Positions 4,251-56,307 of a stretch of 64,000 nt of DNA are shown here, one piece after another. The position numbers and the translations under genes are program-made. How positions within the stretch are numbered: position 1 is the stretch's first letter; every line of letters starts with the position of its first letter. The DNA comes from Shinisaurus crocodilurus (taxonomy: Eukaryota > Chordata > Lepidosauria > Squamata > Shinisauridae), in the NCBI GenBank assembly GCA_021292165.1, contig JAHFWL010000404.1, positions 28,843 through 92,842 of the forward strand, given 5' to 3'. The notes under the pieces are model-generated. The model was not told where the DNA came from. It did not search any database and saw only the letters and a program-made list of their open reading frames with translations.

Positions 4251-5447
4251 TAGGGATGTGTGAAGATTTCGTTTGGGGGGTGGAAGTCCTGCAAACTCTC
4301 CGGGTTCAACCCCACCTCAAACTCCGTCCCACTTACCTGCTTCCCTGGTTCGACTCGCGTTCTCCCAAGCTGAGCTGGGGAAGCGACTTCCAGGTTCCCG
4401 TCAGGCCGTTTTTTACGTAGAAAATGCAGTAAGAGATGCCAAACAGGGCTGCAATTTATTTATTTATTTAATTCATTTATTCAGTTTATATCCCGCCTAT
4501 ACACAAATGCCCTAGGCGGAATACAAAATCATAATCAAACCAAACAAATATACAGCAATATGCAATTAAAACTGGCTAATACAATTAAGCATAAAAACAG
4601 AATGAAAATTCCATAAAATTCCACAAAAATTGATAAAGGTGTAATAAAAGTGTAATAGATAGAATGCTAGAAAAGAAAGGCCTGCCAGAATAATAAAGTC
4701 TTCAGTGCCTGCTTAGATACCTTCAAAGACGTCAGCAGACGCATTTCAGTCGGCAGATCATTTCCCACAACTGTGGGGCAGCAAAGGAAAAAAGTCCTTC
4801 AATGTAGAGCTGCCAGTCTCACATCGGGCAGCTGCAACAGCTGACCCTCAGAGGACCTTAAGTGGCGTGGTGGAACATAATTTGCGCAAGTTACTCACAT
4901 TGCGGCTACTTTTAACGTATCTCATGCCATTTTCTACATAAAAAGCAGCCCGCCGGGAACTAGATGTGGAAATAAGGCTGGGCGCGCTGCCCGAGCCTTA
5001 TTTCCCCCCTCCCCGCCTCGTTTTTTCGAGTGGCGCACAGCACCACTCAAACGATTTTCTTACCCTGTCCGACGCTTTCGGGCCCGGAAATGGACCCCTG
5101 CGCAGGCGCAGAACGGTCCCGTCGTGTCATTTCCGGTCCCGGAAGTGACACGACGGGACCGTTTGAGGAGAGCGGGCGGTTCTCCGCCAGAACGAGCGGC
5201 GGGGGCAGCTCTCCGCAGAGTGCGCGAGCCGCCCCGAAGACAAGGTAAGGCCTCGCTGGGGCGTGAGCAGGTCCATGTTCGGCCTCGTTCGGCCCTGGCA
5301 AGGCTCGTTTGTACAACCCTACCGGGAACCCAGAAGCTCGACGAGCGGCTCGACGTGCGTCTGTTTTTGGCTCGGCTCGGCAGGTGCCGCAGCAGGTGTC
5401 CACTGAGCCGGAGGCGGGTCGGGTCCCTGCCGGGCTGCCCACCACTG
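4251..5447. mobile_element. hAT-like palindromic element (G family), split by a LINE tail
   Basis: Starts TAGGGATGTG and ends CCACCACTG; flanked on both sides by the identical 8-mer CTCCCAAA (4243-4250 and 5448-5455), the target-duplication length of hAT elements. Its AT-rich core around GCGCAAGTTACTCAC is split by the insertion at 4459-4878. The right half is very GC-rich, with CGGTCCCGTCGTGTCA and CACGACGGGACCG inverted around 5110-5162. No transposase is encoded. Confidence 0.82.
4459..4878 (-). mobile_element. LINE 3' end inserted in the G-family element
   Basis: Begins with an ATTTATTTATTT tail read in reverse, then 'tatatcccgcctatacacaa' and a long AT-rich 3' UTR, ending in a C-terminal-like coding relic. 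The host element resumes with ATTTGCGCAAG, so the insertion is younger than its host. L2-like, clade not certain. Confidence 0.65.
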
Positions 5448-5515
5448 CTCCCAAATTCCCCATTGCCAAATTTGATGGTGAATTGGGTGGCAGCGTGTTA
5501 GCTCAGTGCTGGATT

Positions 5516-5542
5516 TGTGTGTGTGTGTGTGTGTGTGTGTGT
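5516..5542. repeat. (TG)n microsatellite
   Basis: About 13 uninterrupted TG units. Confidence 0.97.
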
Positions 5543-5569
5543 TATAATTTGTTCTGTTTTTAATGTTTG

Positions 5570-5930
5570 AGTCATTTGTCACCAAAATGGTCTATGTGGA
5601 GGCTTTTAATCATTAAATGGTATATGGTGGGGTGGTAAATTGGTTTTAGCAGTCGTGTTTTCATTAACTTGTTCTTTTAAAATAAATTAATTGGTTTTAA
5701 AAAATTTCATAATGTTTTAATTATATTTTTAACTGTGTTTTATTGTTTGCTTTTAATTATTGTTGTACACTGCCCAGAGAGCTTCGGCTATTGGGCGGTA
5801 TAGAAAATGAATAAATAATAATAATAATAATAATAATGATAATAATAATAATAATTATTATTATTATTTGCTGTTAGCCACCTTGGGTTTTCTTGCAAAG
5901 TAAGGCGGGATATTATTTTTTAACCAAATT
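5570..5930 (+). repeat. L2-like LINE 3' end, then a SINE-tail fragment
   Basis: AT-rich UTR ending in 'cccagagagcttcggctatt' and GGGCGGTATAG, followed by an (ATA)n tract at about 5813-5868. Just after it is CACCTTGGG...AAGGCGGGATAT, the 3' signature of the tRNA-SINE. Confidence 0.7.
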
Positions 5931-6560
5931 AATACACAAAATGATTGTGCACTAAAGTAAGGACCAATGAGAGAGAAGCTTTCCACGCATGGAACACGTG
6001 ACAAAGAAGACACATTCTCCTGGTTTGGGTCAGTCTTCCTCAGCATCCGAGTTTCTCCAGTTCTGTCCCTCTGTCGCTCTTCTAACGAGTTGGACAGGGA
6101 CGCCTCTCGCCAAAATTATTGGATCTGGAGGAGGTTATTTGCTTAGCTGAGCTGCATCAGCAGCCTGTGTTGAATAAAGCAAAGATGTGTTTTCTTTGCC
6201 GCCTGTCTCGTTTATTAGAGATATTGCAGACGGCAGGTTGGAGGGCATGTTTGCGTGCTAAGGAATGATAAGGCAGCTGCCTGGGGGGGTGAAGGGAAGG
6301 CAAGCAAATATGACAGATGGGGCTGAATGTTATCTGAGCAGCTCCAACCATAACATCTAACCTGCCTGCCTATCGGTTGTATCATAGATATGACAGTCGC
6401 ATATCTATATCTGTTGACATCACTGGGTGCCGTTCAGCTCCTTTCCTCTGCTTCTCTGGCCTCCTCGGCCTCAAATGGCACAGTCTGTTCTCTTCCTGTC
6501 AAAACACAGACCCTTCCCTGTTCACTCTTCCTGGGGCTTGTGCTGGAGTGGAGGGGGAAT
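5931..6560. other. Unassigned sequence
   Basis: No repeat or coding signal recognised. Confidence 0.35.
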
Positions 6561-23704: not shown

Positions 23705-26574
23705 TTGGCCAATAACTTTATTATTTATTTATTATTTTTTTATTATTAATATTTATTTATCGCCCATCTGGCCGGCAACCGGCCACCCTGGGCGATGTAC
23801 ACACAATAAAATACATAAATACAATAAAATACATTAAAACAATATAAAAATTTTAAAATCTTAGCCCACCCCATATTCCCGCCTGAACAACCAGGTTTTT
23901 AATGAGCGACGGAAGCTCATCAGAGAGGGGGCATGGCGGAGGTCACTCGGGAGAGAGTTCCACAGTACGGGGGCCGCCACAGAAAAGGCCCTCTTCCTCG
24001 TCCCCACCAGTCTAGCTGCTCTGGCTGAAGGGACAAGGAGAAGGCCATCCGTGGCAGATCTTGTTGAGCGGCCCACTTGGTGTTGCTGGAGACGCTCCTT
24101 GAGATAAACTGGACCAGAGCCGTATAGGGTTTTAAAGGTCAAAACCAACACCTTGAATTCGGCTCGGCAAGCAACTGGTAACCAGTGCAAATCCTTCAGC
24201 ACTGGCGTGATGTGATCCCGGCGGCGGCTGCCTTTAACCAGGCGAGCCGCCGCGTTCTGTACCAGCTGCAGCTTCCGAACCGTCTTCAAGGGTAACCCCA
24301 CGTAGAGCGCATTACAGTAGTCTAGGCGAGAGGAGACCAAGGCATGAACCACTGATGGGAGCAGGTGATTAGGAAGGTAGGGGCGCAGCTGCCGTATCAG
24401 ATGGAGTTGATACAGCGCCGCCCGGCTCACAGCTGCCACCTGAGCCTCCATGGACAGCTGGGAGTCTAGAATGACCCCCAAGCTGCAGACCTGGTCCTTC
24501 AGGGGTAGATGTACCCCATTCAGCACCAGGTCAACATCCCCTAACCTTCCCTTGTCCCCCACCAGAAGTACCTCAGTCTTGTCGGGGTTCAGCTTCAGCA
24601 TGTTCCTTCCCATCCATCCAGCCACTACCTCCAGGCACTTGGACAGGGTCTCAACGTCCAACCTCGGTGAGGACTTGAAACAGAGGTAGAGCTGCGTGTC
24701 ATCCGCATACTGATGACACCGCACCCCAAACCTCCTGATGATAGCTCCCAGCGGCTTGAGGTAGATGTTGAATAACATCGGGGAGAGGATGGAACCCTGC
24801 GGCACTCCACAAGTGAGCAGCCGAGGGTCCGAAGCCTCCTCCCCGAGAACTACCCTCTGGTACCTTCCAGAGAGGAAGGACCGGAACCACTGCAATACAG
24901 TGCCTCCCAAGCCCAACCCCTCCAGGCGGTCCAGGAGGATACCGTGGTCAACGGTATCAAAAGCCGCTGAGAGATCGAGGAGGACTAGAAAGGAGCATTC
25001 GCCCCTATCCAAAGCCCTCCTCATATCATCCACCAAGGCGACCAAGGCCGTCTCCGTCCCATGTCCAGACCTGAAGCCCGACTGGCACGGATCTAAATAA
25101 TCGGCTTCATCCAAGTGTGCCTTCAACTGAGCACCCACCACCCGCTCGATCACCTTGCCCAGAAATGGTAAATTGGAGACTGGGCGAAAGTTGTTTAAAT
25201 CCTGGGGATCCAAGGAGGGCTTCTTTAGAAGCGGTCTTATTACTGCCTCCTTGAGGGCTGATGGCATCACTGCCTCCTCGAGGGAGGCATTCATCACCGC
25301 CTTGATCCCCTCACCCAATCTCTCCCTGCAGCTCATTATGAGGCAGGACGGGCAAGGATCAAGCAAGCAGGTGGTCGGCCTCACAGATGAAAGCACCTTG
25401 TCCACTTCATCAGAAGGAAGAAGCCGAAACCGATCCCACAAAACCGGTCTGCCATTGGCCTCCTCCCGCTCACTCCCTGTATCCACGACGCATGATATCC
25501 CACTCCTAATCCGATCGATTTTATCTGCTAAGTGCTTCGCTGAAGCCTCACAGGAGGCTCTAGACTGTTCCAATGGGTCCGGAGCGACTGGACCGACCAG
25601 ACTCCGGACCACTTGGAACAGCCTCCTGGGGCAGCACTCTGCAGATGCAATGGAGGCAGCATAGAAATTCTTTTTTGCTGCCTTCACCGCCACCCGGTAG
25701 GCTGAAGATGCAGCTCTAACCAGTGTTCGATTGTCTTCGGAGCGGGAATTTCGCCATCGGCGCTCTAGCCTTTTCACCTCTTGTTTCAGAGCACGCAGCG
25801 ATGGAGTGAACCATGGCGCCGCGCGCGCTCTGTTTAGGCGAAGAGGGCGCTTCGGAGCAACTCGGTCTAATGCCCTGGTGATTGCAGCATTCCAGTCGTC
25901 CACCAGGGTCTCGACCGAGCTACCGTTTGTGTGCTCCAATTCCCCAAGCGCGTACAGGAATCCATCCGGATCCATAAGACGCCTGGGGCGGACCATCCTA
26001 ATAGGTCCCTCACCCCTGCAGAGGGGTTGTGGCATCGAGAAATCCAACCCCACCAGATAGTGATCTGACCATGACAAGGGGATGGCGGATATACCGATTT
26101 CCAGATCATTTCCCCCCTCTCCAGAAACAAAAACCAAGTCCAGTGCATGACCGGCTACATGGGTAGGTCCAGTTAATACAGGGTGCAGCTCCCAGGAAGC
26201 CATGGTCTCCATGAAGTCCTGAGGTGCCCCCGTGAGGACAGCCCCCGAATGCACATTGAAGTCCCCCAGCACCAATAGCCTGGGGGACAACACACGCACA
26301 TCAGAGACCACCTCCAGCACCTCGGCCAGGGAGTCTGTCATGCAGCGGGGTGGACGGTACACGAGCAGAATCCCCAGACTGCCCTTGGGACCCAACCTCC
26401 AGTACATGCACTCAATAAACTTGGTCTCCCGGAGAGGGAGTCTGGTAAGGACCAAGGACTCCCGATAGATAACAGCCACTCCCCCTCCCCGTCCCCCAAC
26501 CCTTGGCTGCTGGGCATACGAGAAACCAGCCGGACACAAGGCCGCCAGAGTTGGAGCAGTGGCCTCGTCCAGCC
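23705..26574 (-). mobile_element. L2-clade LINE, 5'-truncated, long open ORF2
   Basis: From its AT-rich 3' tail (reads ATTTATTTATCGCCCATCTG in reverse) to a truncation inside the endonuclease start. The upper boundary abuts another L2 3' fragment in opposite orientation. A short reverse relative lies at 50205-50290 and a longer one at 35580-36138. Confidence 0.93.
23861..26539 (-). CDS. L2 ORF2: endonuclease-reverse transcriptase, N-terminally truncated
   Basis: Open for 892 codons without a stop. The endonuclease part has GDFNVHSG (about residues 92-99), THVAGHALDLV (126-136) and SDHYLV (158-163). The reverse transcriptase part has FRPVSNLPFLGKVIERVV (451-468), QSGFRSGHGTETALV (486-500), DLSAAFDTVDH (522-532), GVPQGSILSP (578-587) and the catalytic YADD (611-614). 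The protein would nick target DNA and reverse-transcribe its own RNA. The frame continues upstream of the TTG used here to the junction at 26574 (WLDEATAPTLAAL), so no true start remains. An undamaged frame suggests a fairly young insertion. L2 rather than CR1 is judged from the RT motifs. Confidence 0.92.
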   Translation of the reverse strand: MCPAGFSYAQQPRVGGRGGGVAVIYRESLVLTRLPLRETKFIECMYWRLGPKGSLGILLVYRPPRCMTDSLAEVLEVVSDVRVLSPRLLVLGDFNVHSGAVLTGAPQDFMETMASWELHPVLTGPTHVAGHALDLVFVSGEGGNDLEIGISAIPLSWSDHYLVGLDFSMPQPLCRGEGPIRMVRPRRLMDPDGFLYALGELEHTNGSSVETLVDDWNAAITRALDRVAPKRPLRLNRARAAPWFTPSLRALKQEVKRLERRWRNSRSEDNRTLVRAASSAYRVAVKAAKKNFYAASIASAECCPRRLFQVVRSLVGPVAPDPLEQSRASCEASAKHLADKIDRIRSGISCVVDTGSEREEANGRPVLWDRFRLLPSDEVDKVLSSVRPTTCLLDPCPSCLIMSCRERLGEGIKAVMNASLEEAVMPSALKEAVIRPLLKKPSLDPQDLNNFRPVSNLPFLGKVIERVVGAQLKAHLDEADYLDPCQSGFRSGHGTETALVALVDDMRRALDRGECSFLVLLDLSAAFDTVDHGILLDRLEGLGLGGTVLQWFRSFLSGRYQRVVLGEEASDPRLLTCGVPQGSILSPMLFNIYLKPLGAIIRRFGVRCHQYADDTQLYLCFKSSPRLDVETLSKCLEVVAGWMGRNMLKLNPDKTEVLLVGDKGRLGDVDLVLNGVHLPLKDQVCSLGVILDSQLSMEAQVAAVSRAALYQLHLIRQLRPYLPNHLLPSVVHALVSSRLDYCNALYVGLPLKTVRKLQLVQNAAARLVKGSRRRDHITPVLKDLHWLPVACRAEFKVLVLTFKTLYGSGPVYLKERLQQHQVGRSTRSATDGLLLVPSARAARLVGTRKRAFSVAAPVLWNSLPSDLRHAPSLMSFRRSLKTWLFRREYGVG

Positions 26575-26865
26575 TTCTCCTTGTCCCTTCAGCCAGAGCA
26601 GCTAGACTGGTGGGGACGAGGAAGAGGGCCTTTTCTGTGGCGGCCCCCGTACTGTGGAACTCTCTCCTGCGTGACCTCCGCCATGCCCCCTCTCTGCTGA
26701 GCTTCCGCTGCTCACTAAAAACTTGTCTGTTCAGGCGGGAATATGGGGTGGGCTAAGATTTTAAAATTTTATACTGTTTTAAATGTATCTTATCCTGTTT
26801 TTATCTTATGTACATCGCCCAGGGCGGCTGGTTTGCCGGCCAGATAGGTGATAAATAAATGTTGT

Positions 26866-50290: not shown

Positions 50291-50619
50291 TTATACAAAT
50301 AATAGTGATTTGTATTATTAGTGCTATTATTATATAGCACCATCGCTGTCTATGGCATTTTATACAGTAATTTTCAAGGCAGGAGCTGAGCTGCAGCCAG
50401 GGCCGGATTAAGAGCATTATGGGCCTGGTGCTGAGGATTTTGGTGGGCCTTTTTATGGAAATAAATAAAATGAAGACGCAATTTTATATTAAAACAAATT
50501 AAATATTTTAGTCAGCAAAGAAGAACAGTCAGCAAAGAAGTTACACAGTCAACAAAGTTAAGGTCATTCACAAACTCCAAATATTGCTTTCAACTAGCAT
50601 CAAGCAACCTGCATTTAGC

Positions 50620-50720
50620 CTTCACACCAGCAACTGGTGTACATAGGCATACTGCCTCCGATACTGGATAGCATAGAGCCATCAGGACTAGTAGCCATTG
50701 ATATCCTTCTCCTCCATAAA
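50620..50720 (-). repeat. CR1 fragment within the outer hAT
   Basis: 'cagcaactggtgtacatagg' and 'gactagtagccattgatatc' match the CR1 copy at 45420-45530. Confidence 0.8.
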
Positions 50721-51356
50721 TTTGATGGGGGAAGTGTGTGCAGGGCCGGATTAAGCTAGGGGCTGTTGGAGCGACAGCTCCAGGCCCTTAACAGAAAATA
50801 GGCCCGCAATTATAGGGACACGTGGCGATTTTTCCCCCCTTCGGAGTTAGCTCTGATCGTTATCATTCAGCATAATTAATGATTTTTTCAAGATTAGAAA
50901 GGTGTTCTAAGCACATCTGCATTACAGGCTTGAGGCAAGACCTAGCAAGAACTGTTGTTCTCAAATTAGCATTTCAGTAGCTTTGCATTTCAATCACTGT
51001 TACTACATTTCTTTGTGAGAACTTCTAGCACATGGGGGGCTTGCTAGGGTCTGTAATATTCAGATTTAGAAGGGACCTCTCTCTCCAGCCGCGAGCAAAA
51101 GATCTTTCTGATTCGCAGCTCAATTGTTCAAATGCTAGTTTAACAAAAAAACAAAAACGAAACAAAGCAACAAGAACAACACAATTATTCTTGGTCAAGC
51201 AAAGCTTCCTGGCTTTTGTTGTGGCTGCTTTTTTTTTTTTTTAATAAATAATTTGGGGGAAATTGGGAAGACCCTTACTGATGAGCTGCAGGAGTTTTTG
51301 AGTTTTTGCCCCGTCAAGCGACCCCTCTCTGCCCACCCGCCTCCAAAATCTCCACC

Positions 51357-51435
51357 ATGACTTCTGCTTGCTATGGGACAAACCTCTGGGATGGTCTTTA
51401 CCTGCCGCTGGTCCTGATGGCCCTCCTCTGCACAG
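51357..51435 (+). other. Captured first-exon candidate: signal peptide plus splice donor
   Basis: TCCACCATGA start context, then MTSACYGTNLWDG and a hydrophobic LYLPLVLMALLC core, 26 codons plus one base, ending ACAG|GTAAGG. A phase-1 donor after a secretion signal is the usual first exon of many cell-surface and immunoglobulin-superfamily genes. It lies in the hAT element ahead of, and in the same direction as, the transposase remnant. No family is recognised from the peptide. No counterpart is expected in a ZMYM1-like hAT transposase. Confidence 0.55.
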
Positions 51436-51627
51436 GTAAGGTTCAAAAGTTTGACTCTTTTGATCTGCAAGTTCTCCTTCTCCTTCTCCTTTTTTTCTGT
51501 AAAAGGGCTTTCCCTCTTTTGTGAGCCAAACTGAACGTAGGAGAGGGCTGTGTGTTTGTGGGTATGGGTGTCTGCCTTTTGGGGGTGTTGATCCTCCTGC
51601 CGCCTGCAAAATGTCACCTGCTTGGCT

Positions 51628-51630
<3 letters not shown>

Positions 51631-51668
<38 letters not shown>
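51631..51668. repeat. (TG)n microsatellite
   Basis: About 19 TG units, in the probable captured intron. Confidence 0.97.
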
Positions 51669-51669
<1 letters not shown>

Positions 51670-51759
51670 ACGTGCGCTTTCATGGGGAATTGTGTGGCAT
51701 TTTAAGTTTTATTTTGAAAAACCCCAGAGAACAGAGTTCACCAAATATCCCTCTTGGAT

Positions 51760-51880
51760 ATTTTGGACTACAGTTCTCATTTGCCTCAGGCAGCATGGCC
51801 AGTGGCTGGGGAAGATGGGAGCTGGGGCCCCAACATTTGGAAGGGCCCCGGTTGGGGAAGACTGCCCTAGAGGTTAAAAA
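51760..51880. repeat. Diverged hairpin-family relic
   Basis: 'tttggactacagttctcatt', GGCAGCATGGCCAGTGGC and 'ggttggggaagactgcc' are the older hairpin-family blocks. Confidence 0.7.
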
Positions 51881-51894
51881 ACATGGAGGTACTT

Positions 51895-53473
51895 ATCATC
51901 AACGATATGTGATGAGTTTATTGAACTGATTGGTCAGCAAGTGCTGCAGCAAATCATAAACGAGATAAAAGAAGCCAAATATTATTCAATTTCTGTTGAC
52001 TCCACCCCTGACATAGCACATTGTGATCAACTAACAATTATATTTCACTATGTACTACCTAGTGGTCCAGTGGAGCGTTTTACGAAATTCATTCCAATGC
52101 ACGGACACACTGGTATGGAGCTAGCAAACATTATTTTGCAGTTCATGGATGAAAATGGAATTTCCATCAAAGACTGCAGGGGTCAGTCTTACGATAACGG
52201 ATCTAATATGAGTGGCAAATATAATGGTATGCAGGCCTTAATTTGGGGGGGGGGGAAACCCACTTGCTGAATACATTCCTTGTTGTGCACATTCACTTAA
52301 TCTTGTTGGACAAAATGCCGTAAACAGCTATCCAGTTGCAGTTTCGTTCTTTAATTTTGTGCAGCAGTTGTATTGATTTTTTCTGCTTCAACTCATCGAT
52401 GGAATCTGTTAACAGATAGTTTCAAACTATGTGGTATACCGACATTAAAAAGGTTATCTGATACACGTTGGTCTGCTCACCATGATGCTGTGAATGCCTT
52501 ACAAAAAGGCTATAGTACTATCAGAGATGTCCTTTCAAATATTATGAATGATGAATCCACAAAGGGAGAGGTCTGTTTACAAGCAAAGGGCCTAAATAAT
52601 GTCATGGATCAATTGGAAACTGGAATAATGATTGTTGAAGTATGGTCTGTCATTTTACCAAGGATTCACAGAACCAGTCAGTGTCTCCAAGATGCAAAAT
52701 TAGATCTGCATACAGCAACAGACATGCTGAACTCTCTAAAGGATTTTGTGCAGTCTCTCCGTTCTAGATTCTCTGAATTTGAACAGCAGGGTAAAAATAT
52801 TTCCGGCTGCGAGGAGTACCAGCTACAACGTGGAAGGAAAGTGAAAAGAAATAGGAGGTGGGACTATGGTGATGCAGAAGATGCTAATGCTGATATGACA
52901 CCCTCTGAGAGGTTTAAAGTGCATACCTTTTATCCTATAATTGACCAATTGACAGAATCACTGAGGCACAGGCAAGCAGCATACAATATAATTCAAGAAA
53001 GATTTGGATTTCTATCAGAAATATGCACTCTAGCAGCTGATAGTCTACGTTCCAGAGCCACTACACTAGTGTCAAAATATCCTGAAGATCTTGAACCCCT
53101 GTTTGCAGACGAAATTGTACAGTTTTCATCTATTTTCAAAATGTACCAATCTTCCACTGCAAATCAAGACATTCATGGGAGTCAAGAAACACAAATGTAC
53201 AAGTTTATGATTGCACAATCTCTAGTCGGTGCATTTCCAAATACATTTGTGACCCTCCGCATGTATTTGTGTTTAATGGTCAGCAACTGCAGTGGTGAGC
53301 GTTCATTTTCAGCATTAAAACGTGTGAAAAATGAACTAAGGTCTTCCATGGGTCAGGAGCGTTTAAATGCGCTCTCTCTGTTGTGCAGTGAAAATGGTTT
53401 GCTGAACGAGCTTAATCTTGATTCTACAATTGAGGAATTTGCAAGTAAAAAAGCAAGAAAAGTTAATGTGTAA
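51895..53473 (+). pseudogene. hAT transposase, ZMYM1-like, N-terminally lost and frameshifted
   Basis: Coding resemblance begins near YLSSTICDEFIELIG (51895) and reads EIKEAKYYSISVDSTPD, RFTKFIPMHGHTG, then QSYDNGSNMSGKYNG to a G11 run at 52244-52255. Two frame changes between 52240 and 52380 break it; similarity goes on with CCAHSLNLVGQNAVN-like sequence, then opens again for 366 codons from 52373 (STHRWNLLTDSFK, RLSDTRWSAHHDAV) to the C-terminal dimerisation region (NCSGERSFSALKRVKNELRS, ERLNALSLL). The DNA-binding N terminus of a complete protein is absent. Inactive; it would need a partner elsewhere for transposition. Confidence 0.92.
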
Positions 53474-53629
53474 TTTTATTTTAATCTACCAGCTTGATTC
53501 ATTTAGTTTAAATGCAGGTTAGAGTTCAGTGAATAACCTGTTTGTGTGTTTAAAACTAGTGGTTGCTATTTATTTCAAGAGTTACTCTCTGCACCATAAT
53601 CATAACGCAGGCTGTATTGATTATGATGC

Positions 53630-53631
<2 letters not shown>

Positions 53632-53664
<33 letters not shown>
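53632..53664. repeat. (TAA)n microsatellite
   Basis: About 11 units in the hAT 3' UTR. Confidence 0.95.
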
Positions 53665-53669
<5 letters not shown>

Positions 53670-53968
53670 TAAGGAACAAATTTTTATGAACCAAACATCA
53701 TACACTTATATTTAAATTGTTTATATGGTTTATGTTTATTTAAAAATGGTTGTTGTGAATGTTCTATTTATAACGGTTTTATTGAGTTAACAAGCTTATT
53801 GTTTACAAAAAAGAAATATTTTCAATATGTTTCTGTTTTGGCACTTTAATGGTAATTAAAATATTTAATTTGTTTTAATATAAAATTGCGTCTTCATTTT
53901 ATTTATTTCCATAAAAAGGCCCACCAAAATCCTCAGCACCAGGCCCATAATGCTCTTAATCCGGCCCT

Positions 53969-53969
<1 letters not shown>

Positions 53970-54036
<67 letters not shown>
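53970..54036. repeat. Inverted (TG)n-(CA)n tract
   Basis: About 14 GT units, a GAGAGA centre, then about 16 CA units: self-complementary halves. Confidence 0.95.
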
Positions 54037-54038
<2 letters not shown>

Positions 54039-54119
54039 TAATCCAAGTCTTTTCCCTAGTCAAAATTGCACCTGAAAAAAACATGTTCATGCTCATTAGC
54101 CCCCAAGGAGAAAAAGGTC

Positions 54120-54235
54120 CTATGCAAGTTTAGACAGAAATAAGGCCTACAACTCCCAGAATACCTCAGCCAGCATGGCCAGCTGGCAGATGCTGAGACT
54201 TGAAGGACTTACTACTTCTGGCTAAAGATGCACAG
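54120..54235. repeat. Half hairpin element (relative of 3293)
   Basis: CAAGTTTAGACAG, 'aaggcctacaactcccaga'; second arm decayed. Confidence 0.7.
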
Positions 54236-54284
54236 GACTGCATTGTTATTTTTCATCCCTCATCCCTCCCTATTCCTTTTTCCT

Positions 54285-54425
54285 TGTGTGCTGTGTCTTT
54301 TTAGACTGTAAGCCTGCAGGCAGGGACTGTCTTCCTTTACTGATCATATGTAAGCCCCGCCAGGAGTCTATTTGACTGAGGAGCGGGATAACAATACTCT
54401 AAAATAAATTTAGTAAATAATTAGT
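54285..54425 (+). repeat. LINE-type 3' tail
   Basis: 'agactgtaagcctgcaggca', CCGCCAGGAGTC and AAAATAAATTTAGTAAATAA. Confidence 0.7.
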
Positions 54426-55677
54426 TTGAAATAAAGTCTTTAAAAAATAAAAAGATGAGCATCTATAACCGTGCACCTGCCCATACAGGTGCTCGCAGAG
54501 TATAAAATATTTTTTTTAAAAAAATAAGGAAGAAAAGGTGCTGCAGCAACCAGCACCAACCTCGATGGGCCCCAGCCTGTCTCCTGAGCAGGATACTGCA
54601 GTGGGCTTGGGAAAGGCGTATGATTAAAGTCCCCAAGCACCCTGCAAATGTTTTACTCAGAGGAAATGCTACTGCCAAGGCAAGGTAAGGGGGGGGCTGG
54701 CAGTGGGTAAGGGGGAGCCCAGCCGCCTCCCGCTGGCTTGAGAGAGCTCCGGCAAGGCCCCCCCGCCTCTGCTTGTGGGGCCCTCCGCACCGCTGCAGAA
54801 CCGTCAGCCCCGCTCCGGGCGACCAGCATCATGCCTGGGGCCACGGGGGCGTCCAGCGCACACGCACACACACACGCACACGCGCACACCCCGGCTCCCT
54901 TGCCGGCTCCCTTGCCTGCGCAGCAGAACCGGCTTGGCAGCATGGCCAACGGGGATGATGGGAGTTGCAGCGCAAGATGTCTGGAGGCCACCAGGTTGGC
55001 AGGGCGGGGGCGGAGTGTGGCTCTCGTGCCACCTTAAAACCCGCAGGCTGATGGCGGCAGGAGCTTCCGCAAAAAGCCCCCCCCCATCCCTTTGTCAGTC
55101 TTACGGGTGCCACAAGGTATCCCCCCCCCATGTGCAGAAACAGCCCCCACCCCCTGCCAGCCGGTCCCAGCTCCGAATCCGAACTGGGGGAGGGGGGGGG
55201 AGCGAGCGGCGTCGAAACAGGATGTCAGGAGAAGCCGCTCCCTGGACATGCGGAAATCCCCCGCCCAGTTCACAGCCGGCTGAAGCCTCCCGCTCCCTGG
55301 CCAAGTACTTGGGGAGAAGACGGAAAACAGCAACAACAACAACAACAACCATAATTACCTGGGCTCCAATGCCTCAAGCGACTCCCCCCCCCACGCCGCC
55401 AGCCAGCCTTCCCGTCTTCCAGACAACCCAGCCCATCATGCCCTTATAGGGAGAGCGAGGGCCTTTTCGCCTCCACCTTCCTCCGCAACTCTCTGGACTC
55501 TGGCGGGTCAGTCTCTTTCCCCCACCTCGGTCTCTGCGAATGTTTCCCACCCTGCCCAAATGGGCCCTCTGCCCGCGCTCGCGTTTCCCCAGCCGACGCC
55601 GCCTTTGGAAGCGATATCGGGAAAGGGGAAGAACTGCAGTTGCTGCTGGGAGTGGGGGGCGCCCAGCAGAGCACTCA

Positions 55678-55769
55678 CCTTTCCCTCCGTGGGCCGATTT
55701 CCGAGTCCCGGTTGCAAGCGTGGGACAGGCGAAAGAGCCCGGCCAACAGCAGCAGCAGCAGCAGCAGCT
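55678..55769 (-). other. Second exon-like segment: hydrophobic leader plus donor
   Basis: Read on the minus strand: a leucine run from CTG repeats, then AGLFRLSHACNRDSEIGPRR, then AAAG|GTGAGT, a near-consensus donor. Resembles a signal-peptide exon, but the start codon is absent (TAG precedes) and the leucines come from a trinucleotide repeat, so chance is a real possibility. Confidence 0.25.
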
Positions 55770-55847
55770 TCTAGCCGGCCGGGTCGTCGGACTCGCTTTA
55801 GGTGGAAGCTGGGCGGGTCTCCCTAGACAGGCTGCCTGCCCCTTGGT

Positions 55848-56012
55848 CAGGACCGGTGCAAGGCAGTTCGGTGCCCTAGGCAAGATCAGATATTTAGCGC
55901 CCCCCTTTCCCACTTGAGAGCGCTGTATTTTTTTTCAAGGCGTTTCTGGCGCCCTCTTTAGCCCTGCGCCCTAGGCAGCTGCCTAGTTGGCCTAATGGTA
56001 GAACCGGCCCTG
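55848..56012. mobile_element. hAT MITE (C family), perfect 8-bp TSD
   Basis: CAGGACCGGTGCAAGGCAG to AACCGGCCCTG, flanked by CCCTTGGT at 55840-55847 and 56013-56020. It interrupts the GC-rich segment just after the GARS1-like donor, inside what would be intron 1. Confidence 0.95.
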
Positions 56013-56027
56013 CCCTTGGTCCGTCAC

Positions 56028-56163
56028 CTGCTGCCACACCGCCTGCCTGAGCGGGGCCAAGAGCGCCTCGGCGGCGGGCCCGTCCATGCCGGGGTCTGGC
56101 GGGGGCGGCGAGGAAGAAGAGGAGGAGGACGCGGGGGCGGGACGGCGGGCGAGGGCTGTGCGC
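56028..56163 (-). other. GARS1-like first exon, captured in a hAT element
   Basis: On the minus strand an ATG at 56087-56085 opens MDGPAAEALLAPLRQAVWQQ and stops at CAG|GTGACG (donor at 56027-56026). This matches the start of the cytosolic form and WHEP domain of vertebrate glycyl-tRNA synthetase (known pattern MDG..AE..LAPLR.AV.QQ, about 14 of 20 identical from memory), with the donor where the first exon ends in other vertebrates as I recall it. The frame stays open upstream (PPPPDPG and a serine run), where GARS1 has its mitochondrial leader. GARS1 joins glycine to its tRNA in cytosol and mitochondria. No exon 2 or later exon is recognised anywhere in the window, the GC-rich block ends at the hAT terminus, and the exon is in sense with the element. 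Most likely a captured fragment, not a working gene. Confidence 0.75.
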
Positions 56164-56307
56164 CGCGCGTCCCTATTGGTGGGCCTATTTTTGGGGAGGG
56201 GCCTGGAGCTGCCGCTCCAATAGCCCCTATCTTAATCCGGCCCTGGCTGCAGCTGGGTTCCAGTTGTGACCCAGGTAAGTGAAGAAGTGATGGACTGGAG
56301 GCAGGAG

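Follow-up and report, generated by a model that had tools for sequence, protein, structure and literature searches.

The stretch of DNA analysed here, 64,000 nucleotides from Shinisaurus crocodilurus (hereafter the window), contains two nested, oppositely oriented elements of one hAT family. Their 15-bp end, CAGGGCCGGATTAAG, has four exact occurrences in the window (0.13 expected from shuffles allowing at most two mismatches), with outer ends at 50398, 50741, 53969 (minus strand) and 56245 (minus strand), and the like ends of the two elements form the inverted repeats I1 (50398-50517 with 53850-53969) and I2 (50741-50812 with 56174-56245). Which of the four ends belong together is established by the TSDs, together with sister copies extending between the two end types. 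The outer element measures 2611 bp once the inner one and a single TSD copy are subtracted; it is found at five further loci (L010-L014), each with other TSDs, and in the window it carries a piece of the gene GARS1 in the following arrangement.

50390-50397: TSD of the outer element, GCTGCAGC, copy 1
50398-56245, minus strand: outer hAT element, with TIRs at both ends, an exact TSD and sister loci L010-L014
50398-50740, minus strand: 3' part of the outer element, severed by the inner element
50741-53969, plus strand: inner hAT element with the same TIR; TSD AGTGTGTG at 50733-50740 and 53970-53977
51357-51435, plus strand: first-exon-like stretch of the inner element, with an ATG, the signal-peptide-like MTSACYGTNLWDGLYLPLVLMALLCT and a CAG|GTAAGG donor
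51881-53473, plus strand: broken hAT transposase remnant (DUF4371 part at 51881-52267; C-terminal open frame with Dimer_Tnp_hAT at 52355-53473)
53978-54935, minus strand: remaining backbone of the outer element, common to the sibling hATs L053 and L054 (97-98%)
54936-55177, minus strand: fragment matching C2:299917888-299918129 (96% to L058:1189-1430)
55177-55289, minus strand: further GARS1 intron 1 (parental nat 5166-5277, 96%)
55290-55847, minus strand: fragment matching C3:102169422-102169996 (97% to L041:1033-1597, K2P 0.015)
55848-56012: 165-bp MITE, hAT-like by eye; TSD CCCTTGGT at 55840-55847 and 56013-56020
56024-56160, minus strand: captured piece of GARS1 exon 1 running into the start of intron 1 (parental nat 5025-5167), 94% to C5:9354333-9354475
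56026-56027, minus strand: GT of the exon 1 splice donor, CAG|GTGACG; DNA matching C3 joins two bases later
56087-56028, minus strand: cytosolic start of GARS1, 20 codons, MDGPAAEALLAPLRQAVWQQ (60 nt); the parental gene reads ...AVRQQ
56160-56245, minus strand: hAT 5' end of the outer element (outer 1-86), in all 19 elements of the detailed comparison and 84% to the end of the inner element
56246-56253: TSD of the outer element, GCTGCAGC, copy 2

The GARS1 fragment and its parental gene

Over the 137 bp at 56024-56160, the window is 94% identical to GARS1 exon 1 of this genome (E = 3.6e-55), and the MDGPAAEALLAPLRQAVWQQ frame within them lies on the sense strand of the outer element, the minus strand of the window. 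A first-pass annotation had read this frame, followed by CAG|GTGACG, as GARS1 exon 1 inside a hAT element flanked by an exact 8-bp duplication; the frame, the TIRs, the duplication and the DNA match all bear this out. The peptide had also been likened to the start of glycyl-tRNA synthetase. Five such sequences in PDB do align with it over residues 1-20, residue 1 to residue 1, at E = 1.2, a value that is not significant alone, and identity is settled by the DNA match to the parental exon 1, whose locus continues into GARS1 exons.

The parental gene lies at C5:9322888-9354475, away from the window contig. A whole-genome search with NCBIfam TIGR00389 returned 12 matches. Each lies either at C5:9.32-9.34 Mb or at C4:198.16 Mb, and the window contig has none; nine matches of exon size occupy the minus strand of C5:9322888-9341696. 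Upstream of them, locus L016 (C5:9349500-9359499; positions on its reverse complement are given as nat) contains exon 2 (GELVRKLKDEKAPQVDVDKAV...) and exon 1 (...MDGPAAEALLAPLRQAVRQQ|GTGAGG), with the cytosolic ATG at nat 5104 and an upstream ATG at nat 4828, which we infer to be the start of the mitochondrial form. This is the full GARS1 copy that had been anticipated elsewhere in the genome, and the window segment matches both its exon 1 and its intron 1. The same reading predicted that the window would not continue into exon 2 and beyond: the best match to the 105-bp exon 2 in the window is 11 bases long (E = 2.5), and among the 10-kb loci fetched exon 2 matches the parental L016 only, being absent from the 19 others (L009-L015 and L017-L028). 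A broken, intronless-looking, retrocopy-like GARS1, with three adjoining TIGR00389 matches and one TAG inside, was also seen at C4:198164374-198165474.

Other parts of the initial description had to be amended. The interval 55990-56253 holds the GARS1 piece together with the end of an unrelated MITE, and the GC-rich block assigned to GARS1 does contain it, as one component of a mosaic of GARS1, the C3 locus, the C2 locus and the MITE. The CAG|GT of the proposed donor is present, but GTGACG is a junction with DNA matching another chromosome; the parental GTGAGG scores 11.2 bits in an approximate donor matrix, and the window copy falls under the threshold of 8.5 bits. Finally, the claim that a promoter-side part of the gene was captured is not borne out. 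The upstream limit shared by the copies, nat 4907, is 79 bp downstream of the ATG at nat 4828, and because the fragment begins within exon 1, the upstream promoter was left out of the capture.

The 165-bp MITE that adjoins the GARS1 piece is found in L009 and not in the five sister loci, and is a later insertion into the outer element. Elsewhere in the window, a 963-aa open frame on the minus strand (23861-26752) is reverse-transcriptase-like and looks, by eye, like a LINE remnant.

Copies, joints and subtypes

A census with window positions 56024-56160 as query gave 42 matches among the best 40 of 42 candidates, corresponding to 35 loci, the parental one and 34 others, of which 22 were fetched. 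The detailed set comprises 20 copies: L010-L015, L017-L028, L056 and, counted as one with its duplicate L009, the window copy. Both hAT ends were recovered in 19 of them, as CAGGGCCGGATTAAG with at most one mismatch, the exception being L025, where no 3' end motif lies within the 10 kb fetched. An exact 8-bp TSD flanks 16 of the 20 (L010-L015, L017, L021-L024, L026-L028, the window copy and L056), and all 16 are different; at L020 the TSD agrees at seven of eight positions, and L018 and L019, which appear to be one duplicated insertion, show none. Since exact TSDs differ between loci, the element moved after the capture, which supports hAT transposition as the means by which the chimera spread. 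At L055, GARS1 nat 5093-5188 and 5251-6076 are present and no TIR occurs within the 2.8 kb fetched.

The window contig (C1351) aligns with L009 (C5:8471500-8481499) over 10 kb that extend into the flanking DNA, differing at 18 mismatches and 66 gap positions, and is probably an unplaced alternative haplotype. L018 and L019, on C7 at 63.49 and 63.59 Mb, are two occurrences of one GARS1-bearing hAT, oppositely oriented, separated by 98 kb and with the same flanks. Judged from these likenesses, the two pairs are duplicates of single insertions. As separate observations, parental GARS1 lies only ~0.9 Mb further along C5 from L009, and the flanks of L018 and L019 look, by eye, like the AACAGAGTTCACC stretch of the inner element.

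Joints between GARS1 and hAT DNA were compared in 19 elements, six belonging to the subtype of the window and 13 outside it. In nine of these 13, nat 4907 is the first aligned GARS1 base, and in the other four (L021, L026-L028) alignment begins at nat 4931-4943, within 36 bp of it; L056 also starts at nat 4907. A stretch that we call segment X (L018 element 87-357) is present in all 13, and its joint with GARS1 is alike in the seven printed. The shared start base, with the remaining starts so near to it, points to a single capture followed by rearrangement and reshuffling, a reading based on shared joints and not on a tree. The downstream GARS1 limit falls at nat 6076 in L015 and L055, at nat 5892 in L026-L028 and nat 5837 in L018, L019, L021 and L022 (both joined to transposase), at nat 5398 in L056, at nat 5277 in the window subtype, at nat 5193-5196 in L017, L020, L023 and L025, and at nat 5138 in L024.

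Divergence of intron 1 from the parent (K2P) is 0.011-0.032 in five copies over 614-647 bp and 0.004-0.010 in three copies over 501-502 bp; within the window subtype, K2P is 0.009-0.014 over ~3.06 kb in four of the six copies, the inverted L012 and the MITE-bearing window copy being omitted. The exon 1 part is less alike than the intron (85-98%, with many short indels), so that K2P from the intron only makes the copies seem younger than the whole piece may be. The 20-codon frame and its GT donor are intact in eight of 19 copies (L010-L013, L015, L018, L021 and the window), and in the other 11 the frame is shifted, the donor altered or the stretch interrupted. Breakage of the frame in 11 of 19 copies gives no indication of a coding function, and these comparisons do not support one for the captured exon.

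Further probable source loci and the inner element

GARS1 is the only identified gene among the captured sources, and the hAT family carries pieces of three extra loci, two of which, C3 (102.17 Mb) and C2 (299.92 Mb), are represented in the window copy. First, the C3 fragment directly follows the GARS1 donor (...CAGCAGGTGA^CGGACC), contains a donor-like site, AAG|GTGAGT, and has its other end at ~56013-56023, past the MITE. GARS1 resumes after it with GAGGCTTC, GA being repeated, and GCAGCAGG is found on both sides of the first joint. Second, the C2 locus is matched in the window and, over 631 bp at 94%, in the sibling element L053. Third, L026-L028 contain ~640 bp matching C8:1963451-1964090 (97% to L028) inside the GARS1 exon, with GG repeated, and a search with this piece gave four matches, the three elements and the locus at C8:1.96 Mb. 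Both the C3 and the C8 fragments sit within GARS1 sequence with a 2-bp repeat at their edges. No TIR motif was detected at the parental and source loci over the stretches fetched (10 kb at L016, 3 kb at L041, 3.4 kb at L057 and 2.3 kb at L058); because these stretches contain no hAT end, the C3, C2 and C8 loci are taken as sources, copied, as we infer, from locus to element. Palindromic repeats of 120-140 bp, 70-90% alike, occur in GARS1 intron 1 (L016 nat 5592-5730), near the C3 locus (L041 2609-2736) and in many elements; such shared palindromes could favour template switching.

The backbones are likewise exchanged. L053 and L054 (TSDs GGTTCAGA and GGAAGCAG) share with the window element its first 67 bp at 93% and its 3' half (outer 1069-2611) at 97-98%, and carry another GC-rich module of ~835 bp without GARS1; one 3' half therefore occurs with differing 5' contents, and the GARS1 part is found on different 3' halves. 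Two further modules were considered as captures and set aside. A search with segment X, which is GC-rich and has an AAG|GTAAGG site and at first resembled another captured exon, gave 174 candidates. Of the best 40, which were scored, 23 lie by position at loci that the GARS1 census does not include, so that the segment may belong to the hAT itself, as its 5' region or first exon, or stem from an earlier capture. The module of L024 also occurs at 13 other loci (90-99%) and was left uncounted.

The inner element belongs to a populous group: an 811-bp search yielded 1498 first-look candidates, which are not confirmed copies, and the best 40, which were scored, are 96-100% alike. Its first-exon-like stretch has an ATG in good context, by eye. 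The 181 bp around this exon gave 856 candidates, again not confirmed copies, of which the best 40 scored 99-100%; the frame and donor are kept in 11 of 12 other copies compared (L042-L052, picked from the 40 best matches, and L009, which is frameshifted). No parental gene of this MTSACYG exon was found among the best 40 of the 856 genome matches, nor did the exon have a PDB match at E 10 or a Pfam match at E 0.1; its capture is for that reason read from its anatomy. The inner family is possibly a Pack-hAT far larger than the GARS1 one. The transposase remnant of the inner copy contains DUF4371 (E = 6e-12) and Dimer_Tnp_hAT (E = 2e-8), with nothing in PDB at E 0.001, a combination that we take to mark hAT elements of the ZMYM/TTF-like label. 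The inner element has the 8-bp TSD, the TIR and the transposase domains of such elements, but in the copies read the transposase is never intact, other DNA having taken the place of part of it.

Origin of the mosaic and its place among known elements

Direct observation covers the captured DNA and its parental gene, the presence of many copies, the TSDs and the mosaic matches. On these grounds, we are confident that a hAT element captured GARS1 once, most likely via template switching, and that the chimera spread to ~thirty loci and was reshuffled into subtypes; for the repair mechanism, the mobilisation in trans and the order of steps, we propose the following. A hAT element would have taken up, once, ~1.2 kb of host GARS1, starting within exon 1 and reaching ~0.9 kb into intron 1, most likely during repair of a break inside the element that copied other DNA. 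Such template switching is in keeping with the short repeats seen at the joints and with fillers nested in other fillers. The chimera would have kept both hAT ends, allowing transposase supplied in trans to move it to ~thirty loci, and internal deletions, inversions, C3, C2 and C8 fillers and an exchange of 3' halves among related hATs would have given rise to several subtypes. For the window copy, loss of the upstream part, insertion of the C3 fragment at the GARS1 donor and joining to a backbone with the C2 fragment would all have come before it was struck by the MITE and by another hAT.

Capture could have been selected, if captured first exons provided a working promoter and donor and the element acted as an exon or promoter trap, a possibility that we judge unlikely from the sequences at hand. 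The four located sources are indeed GC-rich (0.63-0.74), and donors in the sense orientation score 11.2 bits in the GARS1 piece of L018, 12.2 in C3, 10.5 in C8 and 11.5 in the inner exon. Nevertheless, the GARS1 donor in the window's subtype (GTGACG or GTGATG) is below threshold, the modules of L053 and L024 have no strong donor, comparably strong donors are also present in antisense, segment X and the shared backbone included, the sense bias is not clean, and the GARS1 piece comes without the upstream promoter and mostly with a broken frame. The search, moreover, started from a GC-rich block, so that the sampling is biased. Equally doubtful is its broader form, in which the hAT 5' slot would repeatedly trap GC-rich first exons with their donors (GARS1, C3, C8 and the inner signal-peptide exon, which may exist in hundreds of copies) and these would supply transcription and a donor for fusion to element or host exons downstream; if true, it would amount to an exon-shuffling engine in a vertebrate.

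Somewhat less probable again is a composite transposon, whereby two flanking hAT copies carried GARS1 DNA by excision of a larger unit and template switching played no part. Adjacent hAT ends are in principle usable jointly and nested hATs are present in the window, but in L018 the GARS1 piece abuts the middle of the transposase (inner 2159) with no second inner TIR, and the C3 and C8 pieces are embedded in GARS1 sequence. Segmental or assembly duplication of a single GARS1-hAT locus, rather than transposition, would suit the window/L009 pair with its flanks and the L018/L019 pair on C7; as a general explanation it is most improbable given exact TSDs at 16 of 20 loci that differ from locus to locus. 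Finally, a processed pseudogene of GARS1 beside which a hAT inserted later can be dismissed almost entirely: the retrocopy-like GARS1 with its internal stop at C4:198164374-198165474 does exist, but in the elements exon 1 runs through the donor into intron 1, up to 0.9 kb of it in the longest copy, and exon 2 is absent, the reverse of a retrocopy.

The 8-bp TSD, the 15-bp TIR and a family-encoded transposase, here a broken remnant, are those of the hAT superfamily. The likeness to Pack-type elements noticed in the first-pass annotation is upheld by host DNA (GARS1, C3 and C2) between the ends, parental loci without such ends and mobilisation as a unit after capture, and the further hAT copies that it predicted exist both with the GARS1 fragment (the census) and without it (L053, L054). 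Pack-MULEs often combine pieces of several loci and prefer GC-rich 5' gene ends. In plants, DNA transposons are well known to capture and multiply genes, whereas such cases are rarely described in animals, and no paper on the present GARS1-bearing hAT family was found in the open-access literature, screened mostly by listings. A single genome here preserves a readable series of close source loci, intermediate subtypes, serial fillers and swapped backbones, which opens the capture mechanism, gap filling or template switching, to direct reading. In addition, a start codon has been inserted naturally at ~thirty loci, at some of them along with an intact donor, which provides material on possible chimeric transcripts.

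In maize, Pack-hAT elements form clusters of >100 annotated elements, and plant Pack-TYPE elements, in the sections of the source used here, resemble the present case in that members of known TIR families carry and multiply gene pieces, the difference being the plant hosts (Gisby and Catoni, 2022, PMC8903248). For animals, the passages of the Pack-TIR survey on which we draw (Tan et al., 2021, PMC8277862) name hAT as the commonest carrier (208 of 370), report, for 100 reference genomes, only four cases with multiple copies, three from frog and one from alligator, and describe multicopy Pack-TIRs with distinct TSDs, the fly family Ssk-FB4 in populations and the frog hAT-N8_XT (291 bp of CAPSL 5' UTR captured; frog multicopy example on three chromosomes). 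Gap filling or FoSTeST is the mechanism proposed there. Those cases and ours have in common host DNA enclosed by the ends of a single TIR element, a parental copy elsewhere and capture of an exon or 5' UTR, whereas here one capture is found at ~thirty loci and fragments in the family match at least four loci. Measured against those passages, this copy number and multi-locus content are unusual for an animal. The window element is a mosaic Pack-hAT, of a known kind and more amplified than the animal cases with which it was compared.
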